Shown here: piece by piece, positions 52,803-56,649 of the stretch
Layout of the letters: every line of letters starts with the position of its first letter
How positions within the stretch are numbered: position 1 is the stretch's first letter
Origin: a virus
Direction: 5' to 3' (one strand)
IMG/VR virus record: IMGVR_UViG_3300015242_000022
Span: 1-56,649 of that record
Length of the DNA: 56,649 nt
Made by a program: the position numbers and the translations under genes
Notes under the pieces: generated by a model
Databases searched by the model: none
What the model saw: the letters and a program-made list of their open reading frames with translations, nothing else
Told to the model about the DNA's origin: nothing

Positions 52803-53222
52803 ATGAAGGAATATGATGAAGAATGGCTTGCTCGCGACATCCTTCAGGAGTGGCGTTGGCCGGATGGTGTTATATGCCCGCATTGCGAAAACTCTGATAT
52901 GGCGCGCATGGGATTCCGAAAATCCAACGCGAAAGCCAGTATTCGAGAAGGCCTTTGGTATTGCTATGAGTGCGATAATCAATTCACAATTACCGTTGGC
53001 ACAGCTTTCGAGGGGACTCACCTTTCTATGATAACCATTCTCAAAGCCTTCGACCTAATGGCCGCTAGTGAATGTCAGATTTCGGCACGCAAGATTCAGA
53101 TGTCCCTCCATATTGGGTCATATCGATCAGCTTGGAATCTGAAGAAGCGAATCATGGCCGATAAGGTATTTTGGCCAAAATATGAACCGCCAAACCTGCT
53201 CTCCCGAAGGACGCAGCCATGA
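52803..53222 (+). CDS. IS1595-type transposase zinc-ribbon protein without catalytic domain
   Basis: A 139-residue protein. WPDGVICPHCENSDMARMGF (about residues 19-38), EGLWYCYECDNQFTITVGTA (about 49-68) and FEGTHLSMITILKAFDLMAA, then SARKIQMSLHIGSYRSAWNL, reproduce the N-terminal zinc ribbon and following helix-turn-helix of IS1595/ISXO2-like transposases. The DDE nuclease that should follow is absent, replaced by a short tail; no terminal repeats are seen. A domesticated DNA-binding domain, ATGA-coupled to phage genes on its right. Confidence 0.75.
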   Translation: MKEYDEEWLARDILQEWRWPDGVICPHCENSDMARMGFRKSNAKASIREGLWYCYECDNQFTITVGTAFEGTHLSMITILKAFDLMAASECQISARKIQMSLHIGSYRSAWNLKKRIMADKVFWPKYEPPNLLSRRTQP

Positions 53223-53725: not shown

Positions 53726-53790
53726 GTAGATGCGCTATTCGTTAGTGCGTATTTCCGATAGGTTGACTCCATTGAGTATTGTTACCTTAT

Positions 53791-54291
53791 ATGTCTAATT
53801 ATTCGGAATTATTGAAGCACCCAAAATGGCAGCGCAGAAGGATGAATGTCCTGGAGGGAAACGGATATAGCTGCGCTTGGTGTGGAAATGAGGAGAAACA
53901 GCTTCATGCGCATCATAAGATGTACCTAAAAGGAAAGGAGCCGTGGGATTACAGTGATCTGCAACTGGAATGTCTCTGCTTCGAATGCCACAAAACAGCC
54001 CATGCGCTGCAAGACGGAATAAAGGAGCAGATTTCAGTGATGTCGATGTTCCAGTCCTTCGAGCTTTACGGCCTAATCGCTGCTGACAATATTTGGCATG
54101 GGCGATCCACGGCCAATGTGAATTCCGTTCGCGGGAAGCTTGGTGATGAAGGGTTCAAGCTCTGGTGGGGAGGATTCGCGGCGAGATTCAATATCGGCCC
54201 TGATTTTGCCATTGATCGCATCCATCCGGAGGTTGTGGATTACGAATATATGGATGGGATTCGTGAGGAGTACAAGGGGTCTACGGAATGA
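53791..54291 (+). CDS. HNH endonuclease
   Basis: A 166-residue protein from ATG 53791 (MSNYSELLKHPKWQRRRMNV); a TTG 12 nt upstream is less likely. GYSCAWCGNEEKQLHAHHKM (about residues 26-45) gives the first Cys pair and the HH of the HNH core, followed by DYSDLQLECLCFECHKTAH with the second Cys pair and final His. Metal-dependent DNA nicking or cutting is expected; near a replication module it may aid packaging, homing or host-DNA attack. The C-terminal 90 residues are a separate alpha/beta region. ATGA-coupled to the initiator. Confidence 0.88.
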   Translation: MSNYSELLKHPKWQRRRMNVLEGNGYSCAWCGNEEKQLHAHHKMYLKGKEPWDYSDLQLECLCFECHKTAHALQDGIKEQISVMSMFQSFELYGLIAADNIWHGRSTANVNSVRGKLGDEGFKLWWGGFAARFNIGPDFAIDRIHPEVVDYEYMDGIREEYKGSTE

Positions 54292-55112
54292 AGACTTTTA
54301 TCCTCCCCTCATTTTGGTCTGATCGCGACGTTGAGGGGCTGTCCCCTGAGCAGAAGCTAACCCTGCTGTGGATTTTCACGAATCCTCAGATGAACGTATG
54401 CGGATATTTCGAGACATCCCCCAAGAGATTCTCCTTTGATACTGGCCTAGATCCACGGCATCTAAAAGAAACCGTTGAAGCCCTTCCAAGGGCTTTGAAG
54501 CCCTTCCAAGGGGATACGATTATTTACGCCCGTCGATTCATACGGCATCAGTTCGGAGGCGGCGAGCAACTCACCAAGAACAATATATTCAAGTCGATTG
54601 TCACGCGCTTTGGGGGCATTCAAATCCCCGGACTGAAGGCCGCTATCCTTGAGGATTATCCCGAGATAGACAAAGAATCCCAGGAAAACGAAAGCCCTTC
54701 CAAGCCCTTCCAAGGGCTTATAGAGGGGAAAGGTAAAGGTAAGGGTAAGGTAAGGGTAAAGGAAAGAGAAGGGAATGCAGAGCCGACAATTCCAGAAGCA
54801 TTGGATACACCGGAATTCATGGATGCGTGGGCGAGGTGGGGAAGATACCGTACCGAGAAGGGCGGAAAATTCACGCCTTCGACCAAAGAAGCACAGATAA
54901 AGAGGCTGAACCTCGCTGGCCCATCCACCGCTATAGCCATGATCGAAAGAAGTATCCAAAATGGATGGACTGGACTTTTTGAACTCGACGGTAAAAACGT
55001 AATTCCTATCCCCTCATCCCAACTCCGATCCACGATGACAAACGTTCCTGGCAGCGATGAAGACTCAACGGCTGACTTCAGGAACCGCCTACTTGCCGCT
55101 ACCAATGATTAG
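54288..55112 (+). CDS. Replication initiator / O-like protein with internal origin repeats
   Basis: A 274-residue protein. The N-terminal winged-helix (about residues 1-110) reads LPSFWSDRDVEGLSPEQKLT, GYFETSPKRFSFDTGLDPRH and ARRFIRHQFGGGEQLTKNNI, the layout of phage replication-organiser proteins. A low-complexity Lys/Gly linker (EGKGKGKGKVRVKEREGN) leads to a C-terminal helicase-loading-type domain (FMDAWARWGRYRTEKGGKFT). As in lambda O, the gene itself carries iterons (54475-54720) and a purine-rich repeat tract. It overlaps the primase-helicase by 8 nt. Confidence 0.75.
   Translation: MKTFILPSFWSDRDVEGLSPEQKLTLLWIFTNPQMNVCGYFETSPKRFSFDTGLDPRHLKETVEALPRALKPFQGDTIIYARRFIRHQFGGGEQLTKNNIFKSIVTRFGGIQIPGLKAAILEDYPEIDKESQENESPSKPFQGLIEGKGKGKGKVRVKEREGNAEPTIPEALDTPEFMDAWARWGRYRTEKGGKFTPSTKEAQIKRLNLAGPSTAIAMIERSIQNGWTGLFELDGKNVIPIPSSQLRSTMTNVPGSDEDSTADFRNRLLAATND
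54475..54770 (+). repeat. Iterons and purine-rich tract: candidate replication origin
   Basis: Four copies of AAGCCCTTCCAAG: two as TTGAAGCCCTTCCAAGGG 20 bp apart (54475, 54495), then two overlapping (54692, 54702). Two copies form the dyad AGCCCTT-CC-AAGGGCT. A run of GGTAAG/GGTAAAG repeats follows (54728-54762), suitable as an unwinding element. Confidence 0.6.
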
Positions 55113-56649
55113 CGTATCCGAAATCTCGTCACGGCTTGCAGATCGAGCCGAAGAAGTCTGCCAGCTTATTTTGTCGGGAGGCAAGATGGAATCCGGCCAA
55201 TGGATATCTGGCGATGTCGGCGGAGGATCTGGAAAAAGCTTGAAGGTTCATCTCACAGGGCCGCATATCGGACACTGGAAGGACTGGAGCAATGATGACG
55301 ACAAGGGGGATCTGATTGATCTCTGGCGAACATCCAAAGGAATATCGCTCCACGATGCTTTGAAGGAGATTAAGGAGTTCCTCGGCATTCGAGGTTCCCA
55401 GATTGCCTACTCGGAGCGTCAGTACATGAAGCCATCCAGCAATGGAGTTTCTGCGCTGGCTCCAGAAGGCGCAGCCATCAAGTATCTCCGAGAAGAGCGA
55501 AAGCTCAACCCATCCATCATCAACCGATTCGAGATCCAGGGAGATCCCAAGAATAAGACCATCGTATTCCCAGGCTACTCGCCATCAGGAGAACTGATCA
55601 ACCGTTCCTACCGTACCCTCGATGCCGAAAAGAAGGTATGGCAGGACAAGGGGTGCGCTCCATGTCTTTTCGGGTGGAAGGCATTGGCTGATTCGGCCTA
55701 CCAGAAACGAACCGTTCTCCTTTGCGAAGGCCAGATTGACTGTATGACATGGACGCAATGGGGCGTCCCGGCTCTCAGTATTCCTAACGGCTCCGGTCGC
55801 TCGTGGATCGAGTACGAATGGGAGAACTTGTCGGCTTTTGATCACATCTATATCGCGTTCGATATGGACGAGTCCGGAAAGAAGAATCTGGAGGAAACAA
55901 TTCAACGGCTAGGTAAGCACAGGTGCCTTATTGTGCAGATTCCCGATAAAGACGCCAATGATGCGCTGAAGGCCGGAAGAACCGCCTTTGAGGCTCAAGA
56001 ATGGGTATCCAAGGCGAAGCTTCCGAAAATCTCCGGTTTAGTGGTGGCTACCGACATGCGAGATCGGGTCCTAGAGGAAATTCGCCACAAGCCAGAGGTT
56101 TACACGCTTTCATTCTTTCGCGGGTATACCTCCAATTGCGGATATTATCCGCGACCAGGAGAGATTACGCTTTGGACTGGGCATACCTCCCAAGGGAAGA
56201 GCACAATGCTCAACACGGTTATCCTTGGATATCTCACACAGCCAGTACCACGGCCAACGTTTGTGGCGTCCTTGGAAATGATGCCCGAGATCCTTATCCG
56301 GCAAATCATGGCCAACGCTTTCGAGACATCCGGGCTTATGCCTAGGCACGTGGATGGCTTTATGCGCGAGATTGGGCCAAGCCTTCTGTTCGCTGATGTA
56401 ATTGGATTCATAGACCCCGCTACCCTTTTGGAGATGATGTGGTTCGCGTTCCAGAGGTACGGGGTTAAGGAGCACTTCATTGACTCCATCATGAGGGTAT
56501 CGGGCCTAGAGGAGGACTATCCAAAGCAGGGCGAGTTTCTCAATCAATTACAACAGTTCGCCAAACTTACCGGATCACATATTCACTTGGTCGCGCATCC
56601 CCGAAAGCCAGCTAAGAAGGGCGATAGGGCGAGCGCATTGGACGTTAAG
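55105..56649 (+). CDS. Primase-helicase (TOPRIM plus DnaB-like), 3' end beyond the right edge
   Basis: 515 codons open to the window end. Residues about 40-75 (GHWKDWSNDDDKGDLIDLW) resemble the CHC2-type primase zinc-domain fold without its cysteines. TOPRIM motifs: VLLCEGQIDCMTW (about 204-216) with the catalytic Glu, and IYIAFDMDESGKK (about 249-261) with DxD. The helicase Walker A is TGHTSQGKST (about 357-366), followed by ASLEMMPEILIRQ, the conserved S-L-E-M motif of DnaB/gp4 helicases, and IHLVAHPRKP (motif III region). T7 gp4/Twinkle-like replicative primase-helicase. Start ATG 55105 overlaps the initiator gene. Confidence 0.93.
   Translation, partial: MISVSEISSRLADRAEEVCQLILSGGKMESGQWISGDVGGGSGKSLKVHLTGPHIGHWKDWSNDDDKGDLIDLWRTSKGISLHDALKEIKEFLGIRGSQIAYSERQYMKPSSNGVSALAPEGAAIKYLREERKLNPSIINRFEIQGDPKNKTIVFPGYSPSGELINRSYRTLDAEKKVWQDKGCAPCLFGWKALADSAYQKRTVLLCEGQIDCMTWTQWGVPALSIPNGSGRSWIEYEWENLSAFDHIYIAFDMDESGKKNLEETIQRLGKHRCLIVQIPDKDANDALKAGRTAFEAQEWVSKAKLPKISGLVVATDMRDRVLEEIRHKPEVYTLSFFRGYTSNCGYYPRPGEITLWTGHTSQGKSTMLNTVILGYLTQPVPRPTFVASLEMMPEILIRQIMANAFETSGLMPRHVDGFMREIGPSLLFADVIGFIDPATLLEMMWFAFQRYGVKEHFIDSIMRVSGLEEDYPKQGEFLNQLQQFAKLTGSHIHLVAHPRKPAKKGDRASALDVK

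Follow-up and report, generated by a model that had tools for sequence, protein, structure and literature searches.

A probable iteron-type replication origin within the initiator gene of an uncultivated virus, with two half-site arrays and a purine tract

The window analysed here, the whole stretch of DNA comprising bases 1–56649 of a virus record 71,048 bases long, contains at 54478–54775 what is very probably an iteron-type replication origin located within the gene of its own initiator. The gene (54288–55112, plus strand) encodes a protein of 274 aa, recognized by profile matches to phrog_1701, phrog_678 and phrog_6251 together with a structure model. The first-pass annotation had proposed a lambda-like origin inside the initiator gene; conservation of the DNA across reading frames and among divergent homologues gives good support to the in-gene iteron type, whereas kinship with lambda did not hold.

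The four iterons reported earlier were recovered as exact copies of the 13-mer AAGCCCTTCCAAG (54478, 54498, 54692 and 54702), and no other exact copy was observed in the 56,649-base window. This 13-mer is refined here to an underlying unit, the 8-bp half-site AAGCCCTT, of which six exact copies on either strand are present in the gene, at 54478 (+), 54488 (-), 54498 (+), 54692 (+), 54702 (+) and 54712 (-); outside the gene the window has four further copies, and the remaining 14.7 kb of the record has one. The half-sites are arranged in two arrays about 210 bp apart, each with a 10-bp pitch: array 1 (54478–54505) is composed of half-sites at 54478–54485 (+), 54488–54495 (-) and 54498–54505 (+), followed by a degenerate fourth site, AAGGGGAT, at 54508, and array 2 (54692–54719), located in the linker codons, is composed of half-sites at 54692–54699 (+), 54702–54709 (+) and 54712–54719 (-). 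Two dyads had also been described, as imperfect; both pairs are present, but they are perfect, reading AAGCCCTT-CC-AAGGGCTT at 54478–54495 and 54702–54719 and sharing the same 2-nt centre. Array 1 is located some 190 bp into the gene, at a distance from the purine tract, in the codons of about residues 64–73, which correspond to the end of a predicted helix (57–65) and a strand (70–73) of the DNA-binding domain.

Initiator-sized repeats are present within the initiator gene beyond what chance and codon constraint produce. In synonymous-codon shuffles, which leave the encoded protein and the codon usage unchanged, six copies of AAGCCCTT were reached in 0 of 2000 (mean 0.64, maximum 3), in a test for which the motif was picked after the gene was seen; in a motif-free test, no 8-mer lying outside the purine tract reached six copies in any of 300 shuffles. 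The six half-sites are split 2:2:2 over the three reading frames, and the peptides encoded at their starts are, in order, EALP, PRAL, KPFQ, ESPS, KPFQ and QGLI; the spacing therefore tracks the DNA helix and not the codons. In each of the eight genes mapped, the half-sites are spaced 10 or 11 bp apart and all three frames are represented, each copy shifting to the next frame because neither 10 nor 11 is a multiple of three, and the protein sequence therefore cannot be the cause of this arrangement.

The GGTAAG-type purine tract said to follow the repeats is present as a series of GGTAAN units (about 54726–54775, plus strand), with 88% purine at 54728–54767, and the coding frame changes within it, the tract running on through the change from GKGKGKGK to VRVKE. 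Among the initiator genes compared, the GGNAAN tract is translated as GKGKGK (window, L038 and L002), VMVMVK (L036, L037 and L039) or KEKEKE (L027 and L034). As a candidate unwinding region it gave mixed indications: the gene's least stable 50-mer begins at 54717, but the 40% G+C of 54728–54767 is not AT-rich as in lambda; 5 to 14% of all 50-mers in the window have lower stability than the ones at 54728 and 54725, and at 53770, outside the gene, there is a stretch less stable than the tract. The GC skew, suggested previously as a check on the origin, is positive from near 52 kb, but it is noisy, with no clear minimum at 54.5 kb, and may simply follow the gene strand.

The gene after the tract was correctly described as a primase-helicase gene (55105–56649, plus strand, continuing past the window; phrog_239, E 2.9e-81); it overlaps the initiator end by 8 bp if the start is the ATG at 55105, and a second in-frame ATG is located upstream at 55057. 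A short run of undetermined bases occurs in this gene just past 56649 (about 350–365 of L046; XXXX in the translation). An HNH endonuclease gene (53797–54291, plus strand; phrog_119, E 1.1e-13) lies directly 5' of the initiator gene, the two sharing 4 bp (ATGA) at the initiator start, and the same order was observed in L038, where the corresponding neighbours are 37% identical over 68 aa. Among the loci looked at, an HNH gene directly 5' of the initiator was observed in five (window 53797–54291; L038 5521–5964; L028 2345–2977; L045 2140–2520; and L054 661–1164), all five matching HNH profiles. Since phage ICP1 provides a known case of origin-directed nucleases bearing initiator-type DNA-binding domains (excerpt of PMC10448857), a link between HNH nuclease and origin is worth testing. 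Slightly upstream of the replication genes, a protein of 139 aa encoded by window 52803–53222 has a zinc ribbon of the transposase type (Zn_ribbon_IS1595, E 8e-9).

The N-terminal part of the initiator matches phrog_1701, DnaD-like (E 7.1e-8), and phrog_6251, replisome organizer (E 9e-7), over residues 5–66 only, and the match to phrog_678, O-like (E 1.5e-7), covers the linker and C-terminal part; the N-terminal domain would thus belong, by profile, with the DnaD-like/replisome organizer phage initiators, and its closest relative, in L038, has comparable scores (phrog_1701, 1e-9; phrog_6251, 7.5e-8). In the Pfam search of the window protein no family passed its cut-off, with no match to DnaB_2, the DnaD-like C-terminal domain that Geobacillus E2 does have, and with neither RepA_N nor Phage_rep_O (PF04492) at E up to 1, the latter scoring 5.7e-36 in lambda O. 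The predicted layout comprises a winged-helix N-terminal domain, a disordered Gly/Lys linker and a C-terminal part. The AlphaFold2 model, built from a nine-row alignment, is confident for about residues 6–134 only, residues 136–217 being below pLDDT 50 and the linker and C-terminal part together being mostly modelled at pLDDT under 50. Helices were modelled at 20–31, 45–52 and 57–65, followed by a two-stranded wing (70–73 and 78–81), an order that predicts a winged helix for the N-terminal domain.

In this model the DNA-binding domain weakly resembles those of CodY and of plasmid initiators. The top Foldseek match was 4pql_B, with a weak score (E 0.086, prob 0.96); the first three PDB matches (4pql twice and 4pta; E 0.086 to 0.22) are titled as DNA-binding or initiator N-terminal domains, 5kbj, a Rep-DNA complex, ranked 12, and no match for the N-terminal fold reached E 0.001 or below. 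We take 4pql, 4pta and 5kbj to be RepA of the pSK41 type. The VIA fold comparison gave Z 6.8 for the plasmid initiator (rmsd 3.2, 83 aligned) and 7.8 for CodY, so that the plasmid initiator is tied with CodY and CRP-type wHTH domains, and there was no match at Z 8 or more. No meaningful match to the protein or its profile was found by sequence among solved structures, and no close relatives of the window protein were found by single-sequence protein search of viral_contigs or by protein search of genome_contigs; one weak phage protein match was observed, to Tenacibaculum JQ.

Conservation of the repeats at the DNA level was observed in the homologous initiators L002, L027 and L034–L039. L002, found by a scan of the viral contigs for the 18-bp dyad, encodes a 280-aa product 32% identical to that of the window and contains two dyads, the same as those of the window, with a further degenerate copy beside the tract; its next gene encodes a DnaC-like loader and not a primase-helicase, and the loading step therefore differs between relatives. 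Allowing any centre, the dyad was found at 23 loci in viral_contigs, of which L002 alone is in an initiator gene (1/23), and the dyad alone is therefore not diagnostic. On the other hand, a combined linker-array-plus-tract pattern (AAGCCC-N4,5-AAGGG, then three GGNAA units within 30 bases) was found at seven loci in the viral contigs (L002, L034, L035, L036, L037, L038 and L039), all seven in initiator-type (wHTH-type) genes; a scrambled pattern of the same form gave 0 matches in the scan, and in genome_contigs the pattern was found at four loci, 0/4 in an initiator gene. L038 is the closest relative (43% over 145 residues); L034 had no PHROG match at E 0.01, so that its status as an initiator rests on its likeness to L036–L039 and its linker; and L035 and L027 are one and the same gene, which had originally turned up, as L027, through protein similarity and not through the DNA motif, and which contains four direct 11-bp AAGCCCCTTCA copies with a purine tract.

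Because L034–L039 were selected with the pattern, their conservation of array 2 and the tract is in part built in; gene context, frame use and the presence of the upstream array in five of the seven pattern genes (L002, L036, L037, L038 and L039), which the pattern did not require, are free of this selection. The upstream array occupies residues 64–73 in the window, 60–77 in L038, 57–66 in L002 and 16–26 in L036 and L039, its position shifting among the genes as the DNA motif stays. Homologues retaining the amino acids without the DNA repeats, which the first-pass annotation had named as counting against its reading, were not seen among the homologues examined, the weaker protein relatives L028, L029 and Pan5 being without the peptide as well as without AAGCCCTT repeats.

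Repeat lags were also surveyed in 26 initiator genes, which came from search matches and are not a random sample, with ten of the 73 matched phage records taken and lambda O as a positive control. The best non-tract lag was 10, 11, 20 or 23 in 15 of the 26 genes, and for 13 of these at most 1 in 100 synonymous shuffles was as good, those not significant being L038 (26/100 shuffles) and Exiguobacterium (7/100). A multiple of three (12, 18 or 24) was the best lag in 10 of the 26, including lag 18 in L037, which came from the unmasked tract, with 11 in second place; the lag-12 genes could represent protein repeats, and the remaining gene, JQ, had lag 26 (28/100, not significant). With such mixed lags, the helical pitch is therefore common and not universal.

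Other repeat families were also observed. Repeats of 11 bp of the ATCGATAC type occur in Geobacillus E2, Psychrobacillus PVJ1 and Exiguobacterium, the last being matched by 7/100 shuffles, and 11-bp repeats of the ATCGATAC/TATCCATAC type occur in the linker codons of the L030, L033, L050, L051 and L057 initiator genes, which belong to several phages of Gram-positive bacteria and one faecal phage scaffold and display a like design with another iteron. The initiator of Oenococcus phage Krappator27 (L032 2986–3019) contains three TGGACGAATCG-type repeats with 11-bp spacing.

These observations bear on three other explanations, of which the one we would still give some small weight holds that the half-sites are operators for the initiator or another phage regulator (autoregulation), with the origin elsewhere, or that array 1 is an operator and array 2 the origin. 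The dyad symmetry of the sites would suit an operator, as would the distance of array 1 from the tract, but a plain operator needs no tract, and array 2 and the tract occur together in initiator genes in 7/7 pattern matches, as in known in-gene origins, a count in which only the gene location is independent evidence because the coupling of array and tract was part of the pattern; we consider this explanation unlikely.

Selection on the mRNA, in which AAGCCC-UUCCAA-GGGCUU hairpins would regulate translation or decay, agrees with the folding of both arrays, which is better than that of dinucleotide shuffles (z -2.63 and -2.28), yet L027 with four direct copies and L034 with three have little or no inverted partner and cannot form the hairpin, and a helical pitch is meaningless for RNA, which leaves this explanation very improbable. 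Selection on a Lys/Pro/Gly linker (KPFQG, GKGKGK) as protein, with the DNA repeats following from it, would account for the recurrence of Lys/Pro/Gly-rich linker peptides across relatives; it is nevertheless hardly credible for copies that use all three frames and encode differing peptides (EALP, PRAL, KPFQ, ESPS and QGLI), that synonymous shuffles fail to reproduce, and whose adjoining tract encodes GKGK or VMVM depending on the gene.

If the region acts as an in-gene origin, the winged-helix N-terminal domains would bind successive AAGCCCTT half-sites, a helical turn from one another, on a single face of the DNA, and arrays 1 and 2 would be brought together or would nucleate one nucleoprotein complex. 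This complex may then open the adjoining purine tract, which contains the gene's 50-mer of lowest stability, and the phage primase-helicase encoded by the next gene would be recruited. For the second array, looping, autoregulation and simple strengthening all fit. A fuller reading, which we regard as possible but put forward tentatively, is that of a two-part in-gene origin, in which AAGCCC(C)TT arrays at helical pitch, one in the codons of the DNA-binding domain and one beside the melting tract, would be bridged by the initiator into one looped complex; the half-site and tract would then be a code written in the DNA and preserved among subfamilies of phage initiators whose DNA-binding domains have little recognisable sequence in common, with the peptides encoded there free to drift. 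The half-site and tract are shared by divergent initiators of uncultivated viruses, the 10–11 bp pitch stepping the copies through all frames, and a test from sequence alone (a repeat lag not divisible by three, with all frames used) could locate origins in many phage genomes.

A few model replicons are already known to have their origin within the initiator gene; the window fits this functional class, and the closest comparisons are with lambda, SPP1 and pSK41. Among the titles and abstract starts returned by searches of open-licence PubMed Central, neither AAGCCC(C)TT in-gene iterons nor frame-cycling iterons in phage initiators were found. In lambda, the origin occupies the central part of O and comprises iterons and an AT-rich tract (excerpt of PMC7466680), and the lambda record has four annotated 18-bp iterons in O, 20–24 bp apart. 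The arrangement proposed as lambda-like is indeed shared, with repeated, partly dyadic initiator sites mid-gene, an adjoining tract and replication genes downstream. On the other hand, the window protein lacks Phage_rep_O; its gene has 8-bp half-sites at 10-bp pitch in place of 18-bp iterons, in two arrays about 210 bp apart; its tract is purine with 40% G+C, whereas that of lambda is AT-rich; and it is adjoined by a primase-helicase, whereas lambda O is adjoined by P, a helicase loader. By domain content the window protein is not a lambda O relative.

In SPP1, oriL is within gene 38, the product of which binds its direct repeats (excerpt of PMC6316719), and the likeness consists of in-gene repeats, known for SPP1 by description, and of the matches of the window N-terminus to phrog_6251, "replisome organizer", and phrog_1701; SPP1 differs in using a separate helicase loader and a second origin, oriR, as given in the same excerpt (PMC6316719). 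The pSK41 origin is central in rep and is bound by the N-terminal domain, the encoded linker being dispensable (excerpt of PMC5703833), so that pSK41 rep, of the RepA_N family, shares with the predicted layout of the window, as far as that excerpt goes, an N-terminal DNA-binding domain, a mid-gene origin and an origin-encoded linker. Membership of the window protein in the RepA_N initiators is not shown by these comparisons, as RepA_N was not found by sequence and the weak fold match does not stand out from those to CodY and CRP-type wHTH domains. A further difference from pSK41 is that one window array sits in the codons of the DNA-binding domain, where a single stretch would serve as protein code and likely binding site at once, and this placement makes the role of the second array directly testable.
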